Below are positions 2,699-37,788 of a stretch of 64,000 nt of DNA, piece after piece; within the stretch, counting starts at the first letter, position 1; each line of letters opens with the position of its first letter. The position numbers and the translations under genes are program-made. Source of the stretch: Natrarchaeobaculum aegyptiacum (GTDB lineage Archaea > Halobacteriota > Halobacteria > Halobacteriales > Natrialbaceae). The notes beneath the pieces were generated by a model, which worked only from the letters and a program-made list of their open reading frames with translations, was not told where the DNA came from and did not search any database. The DNA lies in the NCBI RefSeq assembly GCF_002156705.1, contig NZ_CP019893.1, positions 2,542,001-2,606,000 of the forward strand, in the 5' to 3' direction.

Positions 2699-4024
2699 AT
2701 GGCCATCGAGGACGACGTCCTCGTAGTCGGTGGCGGCCTCGCCGGGGCGACCGCCGCGCTCGCGGCCGCGCGAGAGGACGTTCGCGTTCGCATCGTCAGC
2801 GCCACACAGAGCACCCTCCGGCAGGCGAGCGGACTGATCGACGTGCTGGGGTATCCGCCGGACGGTGCCGGTACCGAGGACCCGATCGTCGACCCGTTCG
2901 ACGCCATCGCCGACCTGCCCACGGGCCACCCCTACGAGCGAGTCGGAGCCGACGCCGTCCGCGACGCGCTCGAGTTCTTCGACAGGGTCGCCGGCGACGC
3001 CTACGCCGGTTCCCACACCGACGTGAACGCGCTCGTGCCGACCTACGCCGGTCGGGTCAAGCCGACCGCCCGCTACCCGGCCGCGACGGCCGCCGGCCTC
3101 GCGAGCGACCCGCGAGACACCCTCCTCGTCGGCTTCGACACGATCCCCGACTTCGACGCGCCGCTCGCCGCCGGCCACCTCGAGGCCGCCGGCGTCCCGT
3201 TCGCCGTCCGGGGCGTGACGGTCTCATTTCCCGGCATCGAGCGGGACGACGCGAAGGTCACTCGCTACGCTCACCTGCTCGACCGGAACGAGCCCGTCTG
3301 GCGTGGCGGGAGCGAGACCGGCTCGCGGGCGGCCCTCGCCAGCGTCGTCGAGGATCGACTCGCAGGCGAGTCCCGCGTCGGGTTTCCGGCCATTCTGGGC
3401 GACGACCACGCAACCGCGGTCAGGACCGACCTCGAGGCGGCTCTGGACGTCGACGTCTTCGAGGTCCCGATGGGACCGCCCAGCCTGCCGGGATTGCGAC
3501 TCGAGGACCTTCTTTACGGCGCGCTCGAGGACGCAGGCGTCCGGGTGACCACGGGAGTGCCGGTGGTCGACTACGAGTCGGCCCGCGGTGGGGCCGACGA
3601 TCGAACCGGAGCGGACAGCGACCGGATCGGCCACGTCGTCGTCGACCGCAACGGCGCTGCGGTGCCCCACCGGGCCGACCAGTACGTCCTCGCGACGGGC
3701 GGTCTCGTCGGAACCGGAATCGAGTCGGATCGCGAGCAGGTTACCGAACCGGTCTTCGACTGCCACGTCGCGCACCCGGACGATCGGTACGACTGGTTCG
3801 TCGACGACGTCTTCGGCGACCAGCCCTACGCCCGGTTCGGCGTCGACGTCGACCGCGACCTCCGACCGCTCGAGGCCGGCGGCGGCCTCGAGTTTTCCAA
3901 CCTGCGGGCCGCGGGTTCGGTCCTGAGCGGCTACGACTTCGCCGCCGAGAAGTCGGGCAGTGGCGTTTCGCTGGCGACGGGCTACGTCGCCGGCACGCGT
4001 GCAGCCGCGGAGGTGACGAGCTAA
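2699..4024 (+). CDS. glpB: anaerobic-type glycerol-3-phosphate dehydrogenase subunit B
   Basis: GlpB is the second flavoprotein-like subunit of the three-subunit dehydrogenase and is thought to relay electrons from GlpA to the membrane-bound GlpC. The 441-residue product opens with a Rossmann FAD motif (VLVVGGGLAGATAALAAAR) at about 6-24. It ends with the family's typical closing stretch around LEFSNLRAAGSVLSGYDF and a glycine/serine-rich SGSGVSLATGY that contacts FAD in relatives. It abuts glpA without a gap and is 4 nt before glpC. The family assignment rests on these motifs plus operon position; length matches bacterial GlpB. Confidence 0.93.
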   Translation: MAIEDDVLVVGGGLAGATAALAAAREDVRVRIVSATQSTLRQASGLIDVLGYPPDGAGTEDPIVDPFDAIADLPTGHPYERVGADAVRDALEFFDRVAGDAYAGSHTDVNALVPTYAGRVKPTARYPAATAAGLASDPRDTLLVGFDTIPDFDAPLAAGHLEAAGVPFAVRGVTVSFPGIERDDAKVTRYAHLLDRNEPVWRGGSETGSRAALASVVEDRLAGESRVGFPAILGDDHATAVRTDLEAALDVDVFEVPMGPPSLPGLRLEDLLYGALEDAGVRVTTGVPVVDYESARGGADDRTGADSDRIGHVVVDRNGAAVPHRADQYVLATGGLVGTGIESDREQVTEPVFDCHVAHPDDRYDWFVDDVFGDQPYARFGVDVDRDLRPLEAGGGLEFSNLRAAGSVLSGYDFAAEKSGSGVSLATGYVAGTRAAAEVTS

Positions 4025-4028
4025 TTCC

Positions 4029-5381
4029 ATGAGCGATGCAGATACCACGGCCGATGCTGGCCGACCGACAGACGAGCACGCTGACGACGAGAACGACGCG
4101 TTCGAACCGATCGAGGTCTTCCCCGAGGCCGAGTCGATGGACCTCCGGCCCGGTGCCGACAGTTGCTACAAGTGTTCGACCTGCGATACGAACTGCCCCG
4201 TCGCGGAGGTCGACGAGGAGTTCCCCGGGCCGAAGTTCCAGGGGCCGGAGCAGTGGCGGCTCAAACGGCAGGACGACCACGACATCGACGAGACGGTGAT
4301 GAAGTGCTCGAACTGCATGCGCTGCGATAGCGCCTGCCCGACGGACGTCCCGCTCTCCCAGATGCACAACACGGCTCGCGGGGCGTACGTCGACGACCAG
4401 ATGAACACCCTCTCCCGCGAGTACGTCCGCAACCGGCTGCTCGCGAACTACCGCCGACTCGCGCCGCTCGCAGCCACGTTCCCGCGTACCGCGAATTTCG
4501 TGATGGGCCTATCTGCCGTGCGCTGGCTCGGCGAGAAGACCCTCGGGATCACGAGCGAGCGCGAGTTTCCGGAGTTCGCGACCGAGACGTTCCGTGAGTG
4601 GTTCACGGCTCGAGGTGGCGCGCACGTCGAGAACCCCGAGAAACGCATCGCCTACTTCCACGGTTGCTACGCGAACTTCAACACCCCAGCGGTCGCGAAG
4701 GCGCTCGTCCGGGTATACGAACACTTCGGCTACGAGGTGCTGGTCCCCGAACAGGACTGCTCGGGCACGCCGATGTTCGCCAACGGAATGCTCGCAGACG
4801 CTCGCCGAGCAGCAGAGACCAACGTCCGGGAACTCGCCGGGGCCCTCGAGGAGGGGGCGGACGTCATCACCTCGTGCAGTTCGTGTTCGATGTCGCTCCG
4901 CCAGGAGTACCCCGAACTGTTCGACTTCGTGGACACGGAGACGGTCGCCGCGAACACCTGGGACGCCCTCGAGTACCTGCGGGTCCACGAGGACCTCGAG
5001 GCCGCACTCGAGGGGGCCGCAGTCGGCGAGGAGTTCGACGACGTCGTCTATCACGCACCGTGTCATTCACGTAACCAGGGACTCGATAGCCAGACGATCG
5101 AAGTGATGAACGCGATCGACGGGATCGAGGCACACGACGTGGGGGATTCCTGTTCGGGGATCTCCGGAACCTACGGGTGGAAGGCCGAACGCTACGAGAC
5201 GTCGATGGCGATCGGCGAGGAGATGTTCGAGCACATGGCCGCCGCACCGGCCGAAACGGGCCTGACGGAGTGTCCGACGTGTTCGATGCAGATGGAACAC
5301 GGCTCTGGCTACCCCGTCTACCACACCCTCGAGGTGCTCGAGGCGGCGCTCGTCGGGTCGGAGGCTGACGGCACCGAATGA
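4029..5381 (+). CDS. glpC: anaerobic-type glycerol-3-phosphate dehydrogenase subunit C, iron-sulfur
   Basis: GlpC anchors the GlpAB dimer to the membrane and hands electrons to quinone. The N-terminal third carries two 4Fe-4S ferredoxin motifs (CYKCSTCDTNCP and CSNCMRCDSACP). The rest has two cysteine-rich CCG-type domains. In both, the usual paired cysteines read as QDCSGTP and DSCSGIS, so the first Cys of each CCG is replaced, a point worth comparing with relatives. The start at 4029 is 4 nt after glpB. The last 4 nt (ATGA) overlap the next gene, the Orc1-like protein, suggesting translational coupling and one transcript. Confidence 0.93.
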   Translation: MSDADTTADAGRPTDEHADDENDAFEPIEVFPEAESMDLRPGADSCYKCSTCDTNCPVAEVDEEFPGPKFQGPEQWRLKRQDDHDIDETVMKCSNCMRCDSACPTDVPLSQMHNTARGAYVDDQMNTLSREYVRNRLLANYRRLAPLAATFPRTANFVMGLSAVRWLGEKTLGITSEREFPEFATETFREWFTARGGAHVENPEKRIAYFHGCYANFNTPAVAKALVRVYEHFGYEVLVPEQDCSGTPMFANGMLADARRAAETNVRELAGALEEGADVITSCSSCSMSLRQEYPELFDFVDTETVAANTWDALEYLRVHEDLEAALEGAAVGEEFDDVVYHAPCHSRNQGLDSQTIEVMNAIDGIEAHDVGDSCSGISGTYGWKAERYETSMAIGEEMFEHMAAAPAETGLTECPTCSMQMEHGSGYPVYHTLEVLEAALVGSEADGTE

Positions 5382-29692: not shown

Positions 29693-29800
29693 TGGCTGGT
29701 TCTTCGCGGAACCGGTACTTTTGCGTTGCGTCCCCCGATCAGTTCGTTGTCGCCGATCCAGACACTAACAATTTTGAGGGGGTCCTCCGTACCTGCCGGT

Positions 29801-30124
29801 ATGACCGAGTACACCGTCGAGTTCGTGGGGACGGGCGAGACCATCACCTGCTCCGACAAAGAGACTATCCTCAGCCGGTGTCTCGAGGAAGGCATCGCAC
29901 AGGAGTACTCCTGTCGCGTCGGGATGTGTCTCGCCTGTTCGGCCGAAATCATCGAGGGGGAGGTCACCCAGCCGGCCGCCCGGGGATTCACTGAGCAGGA
30001 AGCAGAGAACTACGCACTGACCTGCATGGCTCGCCCGCAGTCGGACCTGAAACTCGAGCGCGGTGTCTACCCACCGAGCATCGAGGGCGACCTCTCGGGT
30101 GACGCTGCGCCCGCGGACGACTGA
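29801..30124 (+). CDS. plant-type 2Fe-2S ferredoxin
   Basis: A 107-residue ferredoxin with cluster ligands C38, C43, C46 (CRVGMCLACS) and C75 (TCMA), the CX4CX2C...C plant/cyanobacterial layout. The start is ATG 29801 (MTEYTVEFVGTGE). It lacks the long acidic N-terminal insert of the main haloarchaeal ferredoxin, so it is a shorter paralogue. It probably serves a dedicated oxidoreductase. A strong hairpin follows 34 nt after the stop. Confidence 0.9.
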   Translation: MTEYTVEFVGTGETITCSDKETILSRCLEEGIAQEYSCRVGMCLACSAEIIEGEVTQPAARGFTEQEAENYALTCMARPQSDLKLERGVYPPSIEGDLSGDAAPADD

Positions 30125-30195: not shown

Positions 30196-31023
30196 GCCAC
30201 TTGATGGCACTTTCAACGATGACAGCATTTCTCGAGTTTTGATCCGTACTTTCAGACGCCAAGAAATACTATGCGTCAGTAAGGTCAGGTCGGAACGGAG
30301 CGGATTCCGAGCGACCTTCAGAGGTCGTTCGAAAATCGGAGATTTTCGTGATCACGAGAGGCTCCGTCTCTCGGACGACAGTATCCGAAACGCCGACGCG
30401 GTGAACGCGAATCCGTGAAGGGTTCGTCGCCTGCCTGTCGGTCGGGCACGCACGACGATACCTCCGAATGCGTCGAAGCGCTACGACCCCTTGCTGGCAA
30501 AAACAACAGGTGGGAGTCACCGGCGTCGAGGATAGGAGAACGGCGGTTTGGCACTGCCGGTCAGCTACCGCCACGACGGCTGGATCAAACGGGTTCTCGT
30601 GAAGTGGCGGGGCAATGATTGGGAATCTGACATTCTCACCGCTCGAGATTCCTCCGCGTGAACACGGAGGCGGACGTCAACCCACGTTTCGTCGTTTCGA
30701 ACACTGTCCGATCCTGTGCAACGACGGACACCCTCCCCGCGCTGAAGCCCGAGGGTTTGCGCCTGTTCATCCCAGACCCTCCGATACTCTCGAGCGAACA
30801 CTCCTGCGGTCGACTCGCGTTCCGAGTTGGAATCGAGACTGCCTCGTATTCGATTTCTGAGTTGTTCGATGCGTAGCTGGCGGTCGGGGATGAGAGGAAA
30901 GCAGTCACACCAGTGCACTCGAGTGCTTGCTGAGTGTAGTGTAACAACGCAGGTCCAGCGGGAGAACGAACAGCGCAGATACCTCGAGTGAGCGAACAGG
31001 GCGAAATAGGACGTGACGATCGT
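30196..31023. other. 828-bp gene-poor region with hairpins and decayed IS200/IS605-like ends
   Basis: No convincing gene is found. At 30312-30366 lie CGACCT/AGGTCG and CGAAAATC/GATTTTCG (loop GGA) hairpins, with a CGAGAG/CTCTCG pair next to them. Read on the minus strand, 30745-30775 gives CGCAAACCCTCGGGCTTCAG and then GGGGAGGGTGTC. Similarly 30630-30665 gives a CCGTG-TTCA-CGCGG-like hairpin and GGTGAGAATGTCA. Both resemble right ends of haloarchaeal IS200/IS605 elements, from memory. I read this as a graveyard of small insertion remnants upstream of the ferredoxin/ftsZ1 boundary. Confidence 0.35.
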
Positions 31024-32169
31024 TCAGTCGACGAAGTCGATGTCGTTCGTCATCTCGGGCTGGACGGCCTCGCTGCCGTCGGGGCGGCCGTAGATCTGTG
31101 GGGACTGGACGCCCGTGACGACGATCATGGTGCGCATGCTGCCCTCGAGTGTTTCGTCGATGGAGGTTCCCCAGATGATGCGGGCGTCGGGGTCGATGCG
31201 GTCGTAGATCTCTTCGACGACGCCTTCGGCTTCCTCGATGGACATGTCGTTGCCGCCGGTGACGTTGACGAGCGCGGAGTTCGCCCCGGAGATGTCGACG
31301 TCCAGAAGCGGCGAGCGCAGCGCGGTCTTGACGGAGTCTTCGGCTTTCGCCTCGGAGTCGGCTTCACCGAGGCCGATCATAGCGACGCCACCGCGTTCCA
31401 TGACCGTGCGGACGTCGGCGAAGTCCAAGTTGACGAGGCCGGGTTTCGTGATGAGTTCGGTGATGCCCTTCACCGAGCGCATCAGGACTTCGTCAGAGAC
31501 CTTGAACGCCTGACGGACGGGCAGTTTGCCAACCGAGTCGAGCAGGCGGTCGTTCGGGACGACGATGACGGTGTCGGAAACGTCGCGCAGACGCTCGAGG
31601 CCAGCCTCGGCGTTGGTCCGTCGGACCTCGCCTTCGGCGGTAAAGGGCGTCGTGACGATCGAAATCGTCAGCGCGCCAGCCTCGCGGGCGGCCTTGGCGA
31701 CGACGGGGGCCGAGCCGGTGCCGGTGCCGCCGCCGAGTCCGGCGGTGACGAACACCATGTCCGAGCCTTCGATGGCCTCGTAGATGTCTGCCTGACTCTC
31801 GAGGGCGGCCTCCTCGCCGACCTGCGGGAGCGAGCCGGCACCACGGCCGCCGGTCTTCTCCTCGCCCATGAGGATCTTGGTGTCGGCCTCGATTTCGACG
31901 AGGTGCTGGACGTCGGTGTTGGCGGCGACCATCTTCGCTCCGTGGATACCTTCCTCGAACATCCGGTCGATCGTGTTGCCTCCGGCACCGCCGCAGCCGA
32001 CGACGGTGATGTCCGTCTGGAGATCCTGCAGCACGTCTTCGAGCTCTTCGTCCGTCATCGTCCCCGATTTGCGCTCGCTCGAGGAGTCGGTCGGGGGCTG
32101 GCCGCCTTCCGTGGCCGGCGGCTCCCCCTCCTCGGCCTCGTCGATGGCGTCGTCGATGAGTGAGTCCAT
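31024..32169 (-). CDS. ftsZ1: cell division protein FtsZ1
   Basis: FtsZ is the tubulin-like GTPase of the division ring; haloarchaea use two paralogues, FtsZ1 assembling the ring first. This 381-residue protein has an acidic N-terminal extension of about 50 residues, then [17 protein letters not shown] and the tubulin signature GGGTGTGS starting at residue 146. The T7-loop region [11 protein letters not shown] comes later. The [15 protein letters not shown] opening is typical of FtsZ1 rather than FtsZ2. The C-terminus ends acidic without an obvious long linker. It is monocistronic here, with an AT-rich promoter region at 32,200-32,330. Confidence 0.93.
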
Positions 32170-32399
32170 TCTTGGACGCGTCTACACGATGGAGCGTAAT
32201 TACCTTTCCCCTGTACGTCAGTCAGGCGTCAGACATAGTACATTGTGATTACCTATCAAGAATGGTCTCTTTAGTCATCCTTAGACAGTGGTGAGTACTG
32301 TGTTATTACTATATGGGAAATTTCACATTGGAACTCGTCTCGAGGCGACAGGTAGACAGGTCGTTCGGTCGACGCCTGCTCGCGTGTGACGTATCCGTG
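32170..32399. promoter_or_regulatory. AT-rich upstream region of ftsZ1
   Basis: About 230 bp between the ftsZ1 start and the end of the insertion element. The part from 32,200 to 32,330 is AT-rich and includes GTAATTAC-like and TGTTATTACTATATGGG stretches. It should contain the ftsZ1 promoter. I see no gene in it. Confidence 0.4.
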
Positions 32400-32431
32400 G
32401 TTGGCGTAAATCGCCCCGGGGTCAAGTGGTT

Positions 32432-32528
32432 CGAGAGACTTCGTCTCTCGTCATCGAGCGAGATCGGAGGTCTCGCGGACATCGCGGAGCTTCGCTCCGC
32501 TCAGTCACGGAAGATCTCTGATCTTCCG
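32432..32528 (-). ncRNA. candidate omega-RNA scaffold part, short hairpin array
   Basis: Downstream of tnpB, in the position where TnpB guide RNAs are encoded, three perfect hairpins follow each other. They are CGAGAGAC/GTCTCTCG with loop TTC at 32432-32450, GCGGAGC/GCTCCGC with loop TTC at 32484-32500, and CGGAAGATC/GATCTTCCG with loop TCT at 32508-32528. They are nested between GCCTCGGGGTC-like and GACCCCGGGGC-like segments that can pair on a larger scale. Transcription is inferred from known TnpB systems, not shown here. Confidence 0.4.
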
Positions 32529-32624
32529 AACGACCCCGAGGCTTTCGCGTGGACTCCCGTTCTATGCCTCAACCGAAGCAGGAGGGTTGTACTCCTCACT
32601 CACGTTCAGCGTCCCGCGATCTGC

Positions 32625-33989
32625 TCACGGGCGCGCAGCGCCCGTTTGCATGGTATGCGGGACCTCTGGTCCCGCACTATTCAGGCGCACATCTACGGGT
32701 GCGCCTCCGTCGTCTGCGTTTTGCCGACGTTGACGAGACGCTCCGCGTCTCGTTCGCACACCAGAAATCGAACATTTCTGGGGACGACGGAGATACTGCA
32801 AACCGATGTTCTTCGAGGCGTTGTAGTCAGCGTGGTTCTCGTACCCACACTGCTGACACTCGAACGACTCCCCGTTACGGTTATCGTTGTGGGTGAACCC
32901 ACACGTCGAACAACGCTTGGACGTATTTCGAGGGTCTACGTGGACGACTTCAACACCGTGTTCTTCGGCCTTGTATTCGACGTACTCGTAGAGGCGTCGG
33001 AACGCCCAGACGTGTTGCCACGTTGCCTCGGGAATGTTCTCCCGAATGTGGGTCAAGTCCTCGAACACGATGTGCGAACAATCGTGTTCGACGGCTTCCT
33101 CGATAAGTTCGTTCGCCACCGTATGCAGGTATATCTCGAACCGTCCCTGCTCTTTCTGCCCGACGCTCTCGATGTTTTCGTGGGCGTGGCGAGAGCCACA
33201 CTGCTGGAGCGAGGCACGGCGCTTCTCGTACGCTCGACGCCAGTGATTGAACTCGTCTGCCGACCAGAACCGCCCCGTCGAAGCAACGGCGATGTTGTTC
33301 ACGCCCAGATCCACACCAAGGACTGTTCTGTGTCTGGACTCGGATTCGGACGATTCCTCGTCTGCTTCGACTTTCCGCATCGAAGCGTGGAGATACCAGT
33401 CACCGTCACGGTACTGGAGCTGGGCCATCCGAAACTCGAAATCCTCGTCGGAGACGTACTTCGTCGGCGGTGTCTCCGAGTCGTCGGGAAGGATGTAATC
33501 GCACTCGATTCGCCCGTCTACGGTCGAAAGGGAAACGTGGTCGCGGTGGAACGTCGCACTCCGCCTGTCGTAGACCGCGCTGTCTGCCGAGAAGTGTGGT
33601 TGCGACGTGTTCTCACCACGTTTGAGCCGTTCGACGCCGCTTTTGACGGCTTCGACCGCCCGTCGAATCCCTTTCTGGACGAGATTCGCGGTAAGGTCGG
33701 TTTCGTCACGGAGTCGGTCGTAGAGGGCGCGTTCGGCTTTCGCTTTCGAAGTGACGTGGTAGCCGTCGTCGTCACCAGAAACGCGCCGCGTTTCTGGTTG
33801 GCAGCCAGATTCCGCAGGAATCTGGCGACGCCCGTGCCAGCACCACTCGCTCGCGGTGTTGGCGCAGTGTTTGAACTGCCTGACAGTCTCTCGAAGGGAA
33901 GCCTCTGCTCCTTCAGGAGTGTCGAGTTTGATGACGGCGGTACGACGGTATTCCACTGTGTTTTCACATATACTGCTAGTGTTACTCAT
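32625..33989 (-). CDS. tnpB: TnpB, RNA-guided endonuclease of IS200/IS605 family
   Basis: A 454-residue TnpB with all RuvC residues: D227 in VLGVDLGVNN, E310 in HIVFEDLTHI and D388 in HADYNASKN. The zinc ribbon CSTCG...CQQCG (360-381) lies between. TnpB cuts DNA guided by an RNA from its own 3' end, maintaining the element. Residues 54-73 look like an in-frame insertion made of two tandem DNA hairpins (33774-33798, 33804-33826). The C-terminal 50 residues after LQYLRRPQ are coded by a run of further hairpins. It is probably functional in catalysis, though the insertions could disturb folding. Confidence 0.88.
   Translation of the reverse strand: MSNTSSICENTVEYRRTAVIKLDTPEGAEASLRETVRQFKHCANTASEWCWHGRRQIPAESGCQPETRRVSGDDDGYHVTSKAKAERALYDRLRDETDLTANLVQKGIRRAVEAVKSGVERLKRGENTSQPHFSADSAVYDRRSATFHRDHVSLSTVDGRIECDYILPDDSETPPTKYVSDEDFEFRMAQLQYRDGDWYLHASMRKVEADEESSESESRHRTVLGVDLGVNNIAVASTGRFWSADEFNHWRRAYEKRRASLQQCGSRHAHENIESVGQKEQGRFEIYLHTVANELIEEAVEHDCSHIVFEDLTHIRENIPEATWQHVWAFRRLYEYVEYKAEEHGVEVVHVDPRNTSKRCSTCGFTHNDNRNGESFECQQCGYENHADYNASKNIGLQYLRRPQKCSISGVRTRRGASRQRRQNADDGGAPVDVRLNSAGPEVPHTMQTGAARP
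32627..32781. repeat. five hairpin cassettes within the tnpB 3' coding end
   Basis: Perfect inverted repeats: ACGGGCGC/GCGCCCGT (32627-32645, loop GCA); TGCGGGACC/GGTCCCGCA (32656-32676, loop TCT); AGGCGCAC/GTGCGCCT (32683-32706, 8-nt loop); ACGAGACGC/GCGTCTCGT (32733-32753, loop TCC); CCAGAAAT/ATTTCTGG (32761-32781, loop CGAAC). They code the last 50 or so residues of TnpB, where the family is normally less structured, and would also be part of the guide RNA precursor. Confidence 0.8.
33774..33826. repeat. two tandem hairpins inserted in-frame in tnpB
   Basis: ACCAGAAACGC/GCGTTTCTGGT with loop GCC occupies 33774-33798, and GCCAGATTCC/GGAATCTGGC with loop GCA occupies 33804-33826. Together they encode residues 54-73 of TnpB, between a WCWHG segment and DDGYHVTSKAKAERAL. 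That second segment reads as a direct continuation of the first in relatives, as I recall them. Confidence 0.75.
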
Positions 33990-34173
33990 ACATTCGGGGG
34001 TCGGCCTATCACTCTGGCGTGGTTTGTGTCATCGAGTGTCGGCTTCCTCCACGGGGTCAAGCCCCGTGGCATCCGCCTCGGTTCTTCTGTGAAACGATCG
34101 GTCGACCGGTTCGTGGCTCGGACGGAAGCCGGGGTTCCGTGACACCGATTCCGGCTTGTTAGTTTCTGACCAG

Positions 34174-35535
34174 TCAGATCGAGAACCGATCCGTCCGGTG
34201 TCGCCGAACGTCGTTCGGGTCGATCCGCTCGCCGTCGACGGTCACCGACTCGCCGCTTGCCAGTTTGCCGAACGCCGGTCCCTCCGGGACACCCACCTCG
34301 CGGGCCAGTGCCGGATCAAACGCCAGCGTCTCGGCGACGACTTCGTCCTCGCCGACCGAGACTGACTCGTAATTCAGCTCGAGAATCGCTGCCAGTTCCT
34401 CGACGAGCGTCCGGTACGGGTCAGCCGAGGTTGCCGATGCGTCTGAACCGCCACCAGCACTCGAGTCCGGAATCGCCGCTTGCGACCCGATTCGGCTGCC
34501 ACCGTTGGTCGTCTCGAACGCCACCGTGGTCGCCTCGACGGTCTCCCGGACGGCTTCGGGGTCGATCCCCTCCGCGGTTCCGACGAGGTCGGTGGGGAGC
34601 GAGCGGATCGTGAACGACGTAGCGGGGCAGTCACCGAACCGGATGCCGTCCTCGACGCGGCCAAGGGCGGACTCGACGGCCTCGACGACCTCGAGCGGTC
34701 GATCACCCACGGCTCGAACCCACGTCTCGCTGACAGTCCGGTAGCCGAGGTCGGTGATTGTCGCCTCGAGGACGGGCCACTCGCCGTCGACGACGGCCAG
34801 ATCCGTGCCGCTGGCTTCGAACAGTGACGCGACGAGGTCCTCGTGGGCGCCGGGGTGGCCGAGCTCCTCGAGGCCCCAGTCTGCGGCGACGTGGCCCACC
34901 GCCCACGGAGTCTCCCGGAGGATTCGCTCGAACCGCGGTGCGTAGTGGTTCCCCCCGATTCCGACGACCGCTCGTCCGCGGTGAGGTTCGACGCCCCGAA
35001 GCTCGAGGATCGCCCGTGCGACGGCCTCGGCCCCGTCCGGATCGTCCCACTGCTCGTCGCCGCTGCCCAGTTCGGCGAACAGCGACGGGCAGCCCACGTC
35101 GGTCGGACCGTGATGGGTGCACTCCACGCCGGTCTCGTAGCCCTCGGGCGCGTACTCGTCGAAGGCCTCGCGTAGCCGTGCGAGGGCGTTCGGGGCTGCC
35201 TCGGCGACGGCGTGATCCGCACCGCCGAACTCCGCGGGACCGACGTTCCCCGTGAAGTGACCCGTCAGCAACGCGCCCGTGTCTCCGCTGTGGCGCGAGG
35301 CAAACACCAGCAGATCGGGCTCGCAGTCGAAGGCCGACGCCGGTCGCTCGAGCTCGAGGTGAAGGGCGTCGAACGACCGCAACTCGAGGTCGTCGGCCCG
35401 CCAGTAGGTGCCGCCGCCGTCGCTCTCGGCCCGGTCGTCGTGGCACACCTCCCAGTCGACCAGTTCCCGCAGGTGATCGCAAATGTGCACTGACGCCCGA
35501 TCCGCCCGGCTCTCCACGATCGCCAGCTCGGTCAT
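34174..35535 (-). CDS. dtdA: D-aminoacyl-tRNA deacylase, archaeal type
   Basis: DtdA (GEK1-like) removes D-amino acids wrongly attached to tRNA and other mischarged products; it is zinc-dependent. Landmarks in this 453-residue protein are PDLLVFASRHSGDTGALLTGHFTGNVG, ECTHHGPTDVGCPSLFAELGS, and GGNHYAPRFERI with VGHVAADWGLEEL. The C-terminal 170 residues are a halobacterial-style extension with a Ser/Gly-rich linker (near 360-375). A long hairpin lies about 110 nt upstream of the start. Confidence 0.92.
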   Translation of the reverse strand: MTELAIVESRADRASVHICDHLRELVDWEVCHDDRAESDGGGTYWRADDLELRSFDALHLELERPASAFDCEPDLLVFASRHSGDTGALLTGHFTGNVGPAEFGGADHAVAEAAPNALARLREAFDEYAPEGYETGVECTHHGPTDVGCPSLFAELGSGDEQWDDPDGAEAVARAILELRGVEPHRGRAVVGIGGNHYAPRFERILRETPWAVGHVAADWGLEELGHPGAHEDLVASLFEASGTDLAVVDGEWPVLEATITDLGYRTVSETWVRAVGDRPLEVVEAVESALGRVEDGIRFGDCPATSFTIRSLPTDLVGTAEGIDPEAVRETVEATTVAFETTNGGSRIGSQAAIPDSSAGGGSDASATSADPYRTLVEELAAILELNYESVSVGEDEVVAETLAFDPALAREVGVPEGPAFGKLASGESVTVDGERIDPNDVRRHRTDRFSI

Positions 35536-36060
35536 ACGCGTTCTCGAGGGTCCCCGATCCTTAACTCGCCGGATTCTCTGCTCGGTGGGTGGTCTCTCGA
35601 CCTCTCTTCCGATGATACACTTCGGCTAGTGGCGGTCCAGGCCTGAACTGAGAGGTCGATCCGACTGACGCCGATCGGTTCGACCTCTCAGTCGACGCTT
35701 GGAACGGTACTAGTAGTCTGTCAAAAAGACTTCACTCAATTCGCCCCCCATTCATAGAATGTAACACAGAACGAGAACACGACGAAAGCCCTCGGCACGC
35801 TCTCCCTTTCGATCCACCAGGGCCGCAGAACGCCTGCCCTTCCCCGTTGAGCGAACTCGACGAGTTCGCGAGCAACGCGAGCGAACGGCTCGGAAGACGC
35901 TCGCGTCTTCCGGTGGACGAGCGAACGCAGTGAGCGTGCCGGGGGCTTCCGAGGCGTTCTCGATCATTTTGACCGATGCTCGTGACGGGATACTATATCG
36001 AAAATGGACAAAATATTGATGGGTTGAGAGACGACTAGCCGACGTTTTTCAGCAGCAGTG
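35536..36060. other. 525-bp intergenic region with long hairpin and short hairpin cassettes
   Basis: No credible gene. It contains a long hairpin at 35647-35692, described separately. GCGAACTC/GAGTTCGC (loop GAC) lies at 35851-35869 and CGGAAGACGC/GCGTCTTCCG (loop TC) at 35891-35912. The flanks repeat a theme in opposite orientations: AAAGCCCTCGGCACGCTC near 35785, and on the minus strand AAGCCCCCGGCACGCTC near 35945. This suggests an inverted, decayed repeat or insertion around the hairpins. Confidence 0.5.
35647..35692. repeat. 46-bp hairpin, 18-bp arms
   Basis: ACTGAGAGGTCGATCCGA (35647-35664) and TCGGTTCGACCTCTCAGT (35675-35692) are reverse complements at 17 of 18 positions, with a 10-nt loop. 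It sits 110-160 nt before the dtdA start. It could be a transcription terminator-like structure, a regulator site or a small mobile repeat. Confidence 0.75.
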
Positions 36061-36885
36061 TTACTGCGTGGGCTGGGTGACGGCCTGGGCTTCGCGGGCT
36101 TCGTAGGCGTTGTAGCCGGCGAGCCCGGCGATCAGCAGTCCGGAGGCGAGCGTGCTCCAGAAGAGCCCGCCGAGCATCTCGAGCAGGGCGGCGGCGACGA
36201 TCAGCCAGATGCCGAGCAGGGCGACGAGCGTGGAGACGCCGATGCTGAGCGGGACGTCGTTCGAGAGCCGGTAGACGTTGTAGCCGGCGGCGAGCAGGAC
36301 GAGCAGGCCGACGAGCACGTTGTTCCAGATGGATGCGGTCGCGGCATCGAGTAGGAAGACCGAGATGGCGACCCAGAGGCCGACGGCCGCGGTGATCGCG
36401 CTGACGGCGACGGTCTTCCGGCGGCGTTCCTCGCTGGCGAGCTGGGTGGTGTCGTCGCGTCGGTCGATCCCCTGGTCGTCGCGGTCGCCGTACCCGGTCC
36501 CGGAGTCCGGCTGCTCCCCGGGTTCGGTGTGGCCCGGCTCGTCGACGTCGTCGGCGCTCGGGTCGCCGACCGGAGACGCCGCCTCGTCGTCTCGACCCGG
36601 GATCGACGGCGTCTCGTCGGCGCTCGAGTCGGTGTTCCACGGTTCGTCCTCGTCTCGCCTGTCGAGGATGCTCTCGTCCGACGTCGACTCCGCTGGACTC
36701 GAGTCCTCGGTCCGTGTGGCCGGCGTCTCCGGTTGCTCGCCGCGACCAGCGTCCTCGGCATCACCACGCTCCTCGTGGCGCTCGGGCGCGTCGCTCGAGT
36801 CCGAATTGGCTACTGGATCCGGCTGGTCGCGACCCGGACTCGAGTCGTCTCCCGGCTCGCCTTCGTCGCCGTCACGGTCGCTCAT
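36061..36885 (-). CDS. SPW-repeat membrane protein with long acidic N-terminus
   Basis: A 274-residue protein. The first 150 residues are Asp/Glu/Ser/Pro-rich and probably disordered in the cytoplasm. The last 120 form four helices with the pattern SIWNNVLVGLLVLLAAGYNVYRL and GLFWSTLASGLLIAGLAGYNAYE. These two tandem W-x-N/S motifs are typical of SPW-repeat proteins. Function is unknown. It is downstream of, and in the same direction as, the TrmB gene, 99 nt apart. Confidence 0.65.
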   Translation of the reverse strand: MSDRDGDEGEPGDDSSPGRDQPDPVANSDSSDAPERHEERGDAEDAGRGEQPETPATRTEDSSPAESTSDESILDRRDEDEPWNTDSSADETPSIPGRDDEAASPVGDPSADDVDEPGHTEPGEQPDSGTGYGDRDDQGIDRRDDTTQLASEERRRKTVAVSAITAAVGLWVAISVFLLDAATASIWNNVLVGLLVLLAAGYNVYRLSNDVPLSIGVSTLVALLGIWLIVAAALLEMLGGLFWSTLASGLLIAGLAGYNAYEAREAQAVTQPTQ

Positions 36886-36984
36886 AGCTGACGGGCCGCG
36901 TGCGACCGGGAAAAGGGCCGCGACCGTTTCGTTTCGACCGCGGAGCCGCGGGTCCGTAACCCGCCGTTACCGGGCACTGTCGTG

Positions 36985-37788
36985 TCAGTCGCCGCCGGGG
37001 TTCCACGCCGCCGCCCGCTCCCAGAGATCGTCGAAACTCCGGCCGAGACTGGCGGCCAGGTCGACGTCACGGAAGTCGACGACGGCGAGGAGTTCGTCGT
37101 CGGCGGCCGGGTTCACCACCTCGAGACAGACCTCCTGGTCGTCGAAGAGGATGAACCGCTGTGGTGGCACGCGTTCGGCCACGCGAACCTCGAGCCCGTC
37201 GTCGACGAGACGCTCGAGGGTCTCCGTTGCGTTCGCAAAGTCGGTCGCGAGCAGGCGAACCTCGACGCCGCGCTCGAGCAGTTGTTCGATTCGCGCGACG
37301 GCGGCCGATCGGAGTTCCGGCCCGACGTCGAGACTCTGGACGACCACCCGCACTGACGCGTCCGCTGCAGCGAACCGCTCGTCGAGCAGGTCGCGGGCAG
37401 CCTCGTCGCCGAGCGCGCTGGTCGCGAACCCCTCGCCGCCGTCGTGGTCTGGAGCGAGCGCAGAGAGCGTCGTCTCCGCGCGGTCTGCGACGTGTTCATA
37501 CGACGTGCGACGCTGCTCGAGTTCGTCTACCCGGCGCTCGAGCAGCCGGTCGACGGCGGCTGTCGGCTCGACGTGGGTGTACGTTCGCGGGCGGCCGTCG
37601 TCGGCCCTGACGAGCGCCCGATCGACGAGCCCGTTCAGCACGTCGTAGACTCGGCCACGCGGGACACCCGATTCCGCAGCGAGGTCGTCTGCGGTCATCG
37701 CACCGTGTTCTGCGAGCGTCACGTAGGCCCGGGCCTCGTAGTTCGAAAGGCCGAGTTCGGCCAGTAACTCGGCGCTGTCGTCGTCCAT
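36985..37788 (-). CDS. TrmB-family transcriptional regulator
   Basis: A 267-residue TrmB-like regulator. The winged-helix domain (about 5-75, ELGLSNYEARAYVTLAEHG and ESGVPRGRVYDVLNGLVDRAL) is followed by a coiled segment. The C-terminal phospholipase-D-like effector domain (SVRVVVQSLDVG to the end) normally binds sugars or other ligands. The start is ATG 37788 (MDDDSAELLAELGL). It is divergent from the exported CARDB-like protein and RND transporter across an 83-bp gap that contains the palindrome ACAAGCTTGT. It is therefore the likely regulator of that pair. Confidence 0.85.
   Translation of the reverse strand: MDDDSAELLAELGLSNYEARAYVTLAEHGAMTADDLAAESGVPRGRVYDVLNGLVDRALVRADDGRPRTYTHVEPTAAVDRLLERRVDELEQRRTSYEHVADRAETTLSALAPDHDGGEGFATSALGDEAARDLLDERFAAADASVRVVVQSLDVGPELRSAAVARIEQLLERGVEVRLLATDFANATETLERLVDDGLEVRVAERVPPQRFILFDDQEVCLEVVNPAADDELLAVVDFRDVDLAASLGRSFDDLWERAAAWNPGGD

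Follow-up and report, generated by a model that had tools for sequence, protein, structure and literature searches.

Two-hairpin units in a haloarchaeal tnpB element are probably copies of small mobile palindromic elements

The window analyzed here is a 64,000-nucleotide (nt) stretch of the 3.93 Mb chromosome of the haloarchaeon Natrarchaeobaculum aegyptiacum (NZ_CP019893.1, positions 2,542,001 to 2,606,000; positions below are those of the window unless a genome is named). It carries an IS200/IS605-type element with a tnpB gene, in and around which short hairpins are clustered. They are probably copies of a small, palindromic and non-autonomous kind of mobile element present in haloarchaea, an archaeal counterpart of the Rickettsia palindromic elements (RPE). 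Insertion is clean and takes place at defined sites, unit types recur at loci that are unrelated to one another, coding copies keep the reading frame, and pairing is kept as the stems change.

Hairpin units as clean insertions

A first-pass annotation had listed ten inverted repeats, three downstream of tnpB, five in its 3' coding end and two near its 5' end. All ten exist in that layout, and their density is well above that of shuffled sequence, a comparison that the annotation had proposed. Region 32401-33850 holds nine perfect hairpins with arms of at least 7 nt and loops of 3-5 nt, compared with 0.45 on average and never more than 4 in 300 order-1 Markov shuffles; for arms of at least 9 nt, five were observed against 0.03. 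Across the whole window, hairpins with arms of at least 7 nt numbered 52 against 30 in shuffled sequence. Chance or base composition was thereby ruled out as the source of the cluster. Nine of the ten hairpins, together with an imperfect eleventh that the annotation had missed (32458-32476, GCGAGA..TCTCGC) and that is perfect in relatives, make up five two-hairpin units.

Approximately 80 relatives were collected, the element was aligned to one of them that is free of inserts (L024), and close relatives (83-93% protein identity) were used to define empty sites, which were found for the units as the suggested alignment had been meant to reveal. Relative to L024, the element contains four pure insertions with no target bases lost (Table 1). 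One of 60 nt lies close to the N-terminus, two of 57 and 60 nt lie in the 3' coding end, and the right-end hairpin holds the fourth, of 107 nt, in its loop. At five tnpB sites in all, insertion left the target complete. Each unit is a pair of adjacent hairpins with stems of 7-12 bp and mostly 3-nt loops closed by C-G, 51-60 nt in total; nesting is seen in the 107-nt insert, which holds two pairs. Linkers recur from one unit to the next; loops vary, and stems change in a compensated manner.

The N-terminal (beta) unit has hairpins at 33804-33826 and 33774-33798 with linkers GGCGTC, TGCCA and GACGAC. In the gamma unit (hairpins 32761-32781 and 32733-32753) the linker is TGTGCGA and CGTC stands on either side; L062 and L085 have this type at the identical site, and in the window's own genome it also stands upstream of a further tnpB gene (L002). 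The delta unit (32656-32676 and 32627-32645) is shared with L020, and similar units occur in L017 and L127. At the right end, the outer alpha pair (32508-32528 and 32432-32450) encloses the inner one in the order GTCGTT-hairpin-TGACTGA-hairpin-GATGTCC-hairpin-TTGATGA-hairpin-AACCAC, with conserved linkers and free stems. The empty form of this site, GCCTCGGGG-CTTGA-CCCCGAGGC, is found in L022, L024, L029, L030 and L035, and a two-hairpin form (53-56 nt) in L020, L031, L032 and L048; the inner unit is absent from these two-hairpin relatives and present in L021, L083 and L129. Coding inserts are multiples of three, with exceptions (61 nt in the broken gene L051; 52 nt in L075), and right-end inserts are not bound to three. 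For the 56/57-nt coding inserts of L062 and L085, the matched stretch itself is not one open frame.

These alignments support the first-pass interpretation in part. Its "family of hairpin cassettes" is largely right, as empty sites in close relatives reveal clean insertion, but each cassette consists of two hairpins and there are several families defined by their linkers. The stems do differ, as noted, although units described as "not copies of one repeat" share recurring linkers and come in pairs. One of the ten hairpins (32683-32706) is no cassette but a native stem of the predicted omegaRNA. The annotation had also held that relatives carrying the same hairpins with compensatory changes would indicate an ordinary conserved RNA fold rather than insertions; such relatives were found, and other close relatives nonetheless have empty sites, so that this either/or does not hold.

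In-frame copies in other protein genes

A 57-nt unit lies in frame at amino acid 311 of purK (NCBIfam purK match) in two genomes, G067 and G077, among ~50 orthologues read. It is absent from orthologues at 85-93% identity and from the purK of the window's own genome (82% identical). The same 57-nt unit is in frame in an ABC transporter gene of G081, shortly past the Walker A region, and is decayed in that gene in G067. The purK and ABC copies agree in every nucleotide outside the two loops; one loop is an exact inversion (TTC vs GAA), and GACGT stands on both flanks of the unit in both genes. In purK of other genomes, hairpin pairs occupy two further sites, one with a compensated stem change as well as decayed copies, and a macro-domain gene also carries an in-frame hairpin unit. 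Some gene-borne copies decay while the reading frame persists. The ABC transporter has a second site of in-frame insertion (amino acid 420; L289, L297, L298 and L299), which is mostly decayed and possibly an old hairpin pair.

Unit families across haloarchaea

By similarity search, the alpha family occurs in 100 of 125 Natrialbaceae genomes. A covariance model with rough E-values matched it in 245 out of 292 genomes from the class, with many matches on both strands because the units are nearly palindromic. The beta family is present in 67 of the 125 Natrialbaceae genomes, mostly away from tnpB, and 24 of 30 alpha copies examined had no tnpB within 1.5 kb; a feature bound purely to tnpB was ruled out, as most copies are elsewhere. 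A viral source was also considered and set aside: two unit cores had no exact match in viral contigs, and no phage record matches the element. A literature search of partial coverage found no description of such units in haloarchaea.

Solo alpha copies stand directly after the stop codons of unrelated genes in L145, L149, L153, L154, L156 and L157 (~1480-1800), with a conserved AACNAACTTTTGCGCT lead followed by further hairpins in an extended array.

Placement in the predicted omegaRNA and in TnpB

The consensus fold of the insert-free 3' region, which has modest covariation across 25 relatives, comprises stems A, B and C and the right-end stem. Stem B, AGGCGCAC..GTGCGCCT with an 8-nt loop, was found in 25 of 25 aligned insert-free relatives. 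Insertion sites fall in inner stem A, in the B-C linker and in the right-end loop, and in other relatives in a hairpin loop; three of the four insertions lie in a loop, internal loop or linker of the predicted omegaRNA. The window sequence with its inserts is predicted to retain the same core. Placement in loops and linkers, along with unchanged core folds, suggests that the predicted omegaRNA is enlarged rather than broken, its core fold being intact. The first-pass expectation of a structured RNA far more elaborate than a typical omegaRNA agrees with this predicted fold, as a consequence of insertion.

In the protein, TnpB residues 54-77, encoded by the beta insert, are modelled as a disordered loop of low confidence that joins two confidently predicted helices. 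The C-terminal inserts are modelled as part of a disordered tail, and the model's mean predicted local distance difference test score is low overall (61).

Across relatives, tnpB elements had 0.60 hairpin pairs per kb in their 3' or omegaRNA zone, against none in the tnpB body and 0.011 in the flanking genome. This is a density ~50 times greater in the 3' zone, against a genome background that rests on a 400-kb sample (six hairpin pairs; none in one shuffle). Most other tnpB genes of the same genome have pairs inside or nearby, and L017 has four.

Gain, transfer and sequence signature

In a phylogeny of 72 tnpB genes from which the inserts had been left out, and in which many forks are weakly supported, the beta unit (11 carriers) required 10 changes and the right-end unit (11 carriers) 9-10. 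Insert identity between carriers of different subfamilies was mostly 85-93%, whereas their tnpB cores were 72-78% identical; lower insert identities involving L048 arise from its broken alignment. Among 27 alpha copies, 97.4% of cells were paired, and there were 106 double-change cells compared with 33 in shuffled and at most 30 in slid controls.

Loops of paired hairpins were GNA or its complement TNC in 170 of 306 cases, the two being about equally frequent, whereas single background hairpins had such loops in 10 of 325; loops were closed by C-G in 262 of 306 and 124 of 325, respectively. DNA mini-hairpins of the form C-GNA-G are very stable. The loop signature, with GNA as frequent as TNC and C-G closing, favors an origin at the DNA level.

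Proposed mechanism and rival explanations

If the hairpins are mobile palindromic elements, the units would spread at the DNA level, probably moved or copied as a folded single strand. IS200/IS605 elements transpose as folded single strands and would, for that reason, be natural targets. Coding copies would survive if they keep the frame and lie in a loop on the protein surface. Copies in the omegaRNA would be tolerated in loops and junctions, since such placement leaves the core fold intact, and the predicted guide RNA would gain hairpins resembling expansion segments. A broader proposal, which we put forward tentatively and hold to be possible rather than probable, is that the units represent archaeal mobile DNA of a class set by its shape and not by its sequence. 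Its stems and loops would be rewritten (pairing restored, tips inverted) while it persists, and it would move as folded single-stranded DNA by means of some enzyme, providing raw material for the expansion of guide RNAs and proteins.

Several observations weigh against mobility as the explanation. Neither a mobilizing gene nor a consistent target duplication was found for the units; direct repeats flanking them are 5, 5, 4, 2-3 and 0 nt long, and with such variation no standard target duplication can be claimed. Over flanks of up to 30 nt, similarity is somewhat higher among carriers (0.938) than when carriers are set against non-carriers (0.895), which suggests that short-tract recombination or target preference contributes; some insertions could instead reflect recombination over short tracts or precise loss. 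Many forks in the tnpB tree have weak support. Compensatory stem changes would also fit a role in RNA, and related copies inflate the counts for both covariation and loop signature. Lastly, with genes called by codon-position GC, solo alpha copies lie 14-21 nt past a same-strand stop codon in 17 of 17 close matches (~10 distinct copies), a placement that would likewise fit an RNA role.

The main rival is selection on RNA structure, in which the hairpins are functional modules of the omegaRNA or, for solo copies, of 3' untranslated regions, serving, for example, stability, processing or the separation of guide RNAs of different tnpBs. The strong compensatory change, the location of hairpins in loops and junctions of the predicted omegaRNA and the sense orientation of solo alpha copies behind stop codons all agree with it. 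Yet close relatives have an intact tnpB with empty sites, the copies in purK, the ABC transporter and the macro-domain gene are in frame and partly decaying with the frame kept, and GNA and TNC are similarly frequent where an RNA loop would favor one strand. We therefore consider it unlikely as the general explanation; it fails on the purK copies, while it may add to retention in the omegaRNA.

That the units belong to a known class, namely PATE or SMR-A repeats, or repetitive extragenic palindromic (REP) repeats moved by a TnpA/RAYT transposase, appears very unlikely. Some alpha copies do sit in loops of PATE-like ends, some units are flanked by CGTC tags, the genome has an intact Y1 transposase gene, and SMR-A elements target the same palindromes (PMC3119063). 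However, SMR-A are ~110 bp long with terminal inverted repeats and PATEs have IS605-like near-terminal palindromes (PMC3119063), while unit stems are not conserved as in REP families and their loops are mostly 3 nt, compared with 4-5 nt in CGTC repeats (PMC3733652). Insertion of the IS608 type, 3' of one fixed tetranucleotide, was rejected, as the five tnpB sites share none.

Least probable is a mutational process (template switching or fold-back synthesis) that builds and perfects hairpins in place with no mobile unit: perfect arms, the exact TTC/GAA loop inversion and fast compensated stem change fit quasi-palindrome correction, which may explain how stems stay perfect, but whole units appear without a flanking source sequence, for which reason simple in-place template switching was rejected as their origin, and linkers are conserved at unrelated loci with near-identical units in purK and the ABC gene.

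The tnpB element and neighboring features

The tnpB product scores 165 bits against the NCBIfam guided_TnpB model (cut-off 100), and has the Pfam domain Cas12f1-like_TNB, the CxxC pairs of the zinc ribbon and the D, E and D residues of RuvC, of which D227 and E310 are invariant and D388 is at least 90% conserved among 25 relatives. The element extends from a left end near 34098 to a right end at 32406. Rfam covariance models gave no matches in 31000-37000 up to E = 1.

Table 1. Features of the tnpB element and its inserted units.
Feature	Position	Strand	Basis or remark
tnpB, 454 amino acids, IS1341-type/IS200-IS605 RNA-guided nuclease	32625..33989	minus	intact frame; NCBIfam guided_TnpB, Pfam Cas12f1-like_TNB
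Left-end hairpin, native, CCACGGGG-CTTGA-CCCCGTGG	34049..34069	minus	relatives share the left end TTCACAG..
N-terminal (beta) unit, 60-nt in-frame two-hairpin insert	33772..33831	minus	clean insertion vs empty relatives L022-L036
C-terminal (gamma) unit, 57-nt in-frame two-hairpin insert	32730..32786	minus	alignment with empty relatives
omegaRNA stem B, native, not an insert	32683..32706	minus	none of the six predicted pairs changes in 25 insert-free relatives
C-terminal (delta) unit, 60-nt in-frame two-hairpin insert	32621..32680	minus	alignment with empty relatives
Right-end stem, native, arms 32413-32421 and 32534-32542, divided by 107-nt insert	32413..32542	minus	alignment of right ends
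Right-end (alpha) four-hairpin insert, 107 nt, in right-end hairpin loop	32427..32533	minus	empty and two-hairpin relatives
Inner nested two-hairpin unit, 51 nt	32454..32504	minus	hairpin 32484-32500 and imperfect 32458-32476
Predicted guide segment, directly beyond right end	32386..32405	minus	position relative to right end only, from TnpB biology

Elsewhere in the window, an alpha-type two-hairpin unit (30323-30379; GTCGTT-CGAAAATCggaGATTTTCG-TGATCA-CGAGAG..CTCTCG-GACGAC) is located between the reading frame at 29726-30124 and an FtsZ-like gene (31024-32169). Long imperfect inverted repeats with arms of 39 and 34 nt lie at 35626-35965; the second includes two more hairpins at 35851-35869 and 35891-35912, and the stretch looks like a palindromic mobile remnant. 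In the rest of the genome, a single intact Y1 transposase gene (tnpA) was found (508191-508550 of the genome); a second Y1 tnpA (2464171-2464608 of the genome) has an in-frame TGA, with two hairpin pairs inside and beside it.

Among the relatives, L048 has an AT-rich insert of 106 nt at the very tip of its first N-terminal hairpin, which recalls the SMR-A habit of targeting palindromes and may be SMR-A-like. The whole right end of L020, including its two-hairpin insert, is tandemly duplicated (3973-4170), and L023 has upstream 53-nt tandem repeats (CGCGAAAGCCCGCAAGGGG...; 1968-2100) that are unrelated to the units.

Significance

To our knowledge, in-frame selfish palindromes are known mainly from Rickettsia. 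An archaeal counterpart in more than half of the family's genomes would supply insertions into working proteins and guide RNAs in many natural replicates. The placements suggest that large insertions in loops are tolerated by omegaRNAs where they fall at defined places, a point of relevance to the engineering of guide RNAs. How palindromic repeats without a transposase spread becomes a testable question, since near-identical units have empty and full sites in close relatives. Should the tentative shape-defined class prove true, its units would be raw material for the expansion of guide RNAs and proteins.

Comparison with known systems

In behavior, the units are closest to RPE and REP dimers, and in taxon to PATE and SMR-A of Haloquadratum; each of these differs in at least one of the defining features tested. 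As reviewed in PMC10969869, RPE are small palindromic selfish DNA, in frame in unrelated metabolic genes and variably present among relatives. Haloarchaeal units are likewise in frame in unrelated protein genes (tnpB, purK, ABC transporter and macro-domain gene). By description, RPE are ~150 bp with a family-conserved peptide, whereas the units are 51-60 nt, with two hairpins and free stems; they also differ in being archaeal and concentrated in tnpB omegaRNA zones.

REP dimers and the GTAG- and CGTC-tagged repeats share with the units their hairpin pairs, intragenic copies and, for some units, a nearby CGTC; the CGTC class has no dedicated transposase, and no haloarchaeal case is named in its description (PMC3733652). 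CGTC repeats have 4-5 nt loops (PMC3733652) and more alike stems, whereas the haloarchaeal units conserve linkers and not stems. REP repeats and bacterial interspersed mosaic elements are defined by a conserved stem, a GTAG/CGTC tag and a typical loop; the units have compensated, variable stems and mostly 3-nt loops, with CGTC/GACG near only some of them.

PATE and SMR-A are, like the units, short transposase-free haloarchaeal repeats tied to IS605 ends and palindromes (Dyall-Smith 2011, PMC3119063), but of another size and architecture. The units, 51-60 nt of two hairpins, have neither the ~110 bp and terminal inverted repeats of SMR-A nor the IS605-like ends and near-terminal palindrome of PATEs, although some reside inside PATE-like loops; no mention of in-frame inserts in housekeeping genes was found in PMC3119063.

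Finally, the predicted RNA of this tnpB resembles the archaeal omegaRNA/sotRNA of IS1341-type tnpB (PMC12558985) in its predicted core stems, right-end hairpin and overlap with the tnpB 3' end, and differs from it by eight extra inserted hairpins that would approximately double its size.
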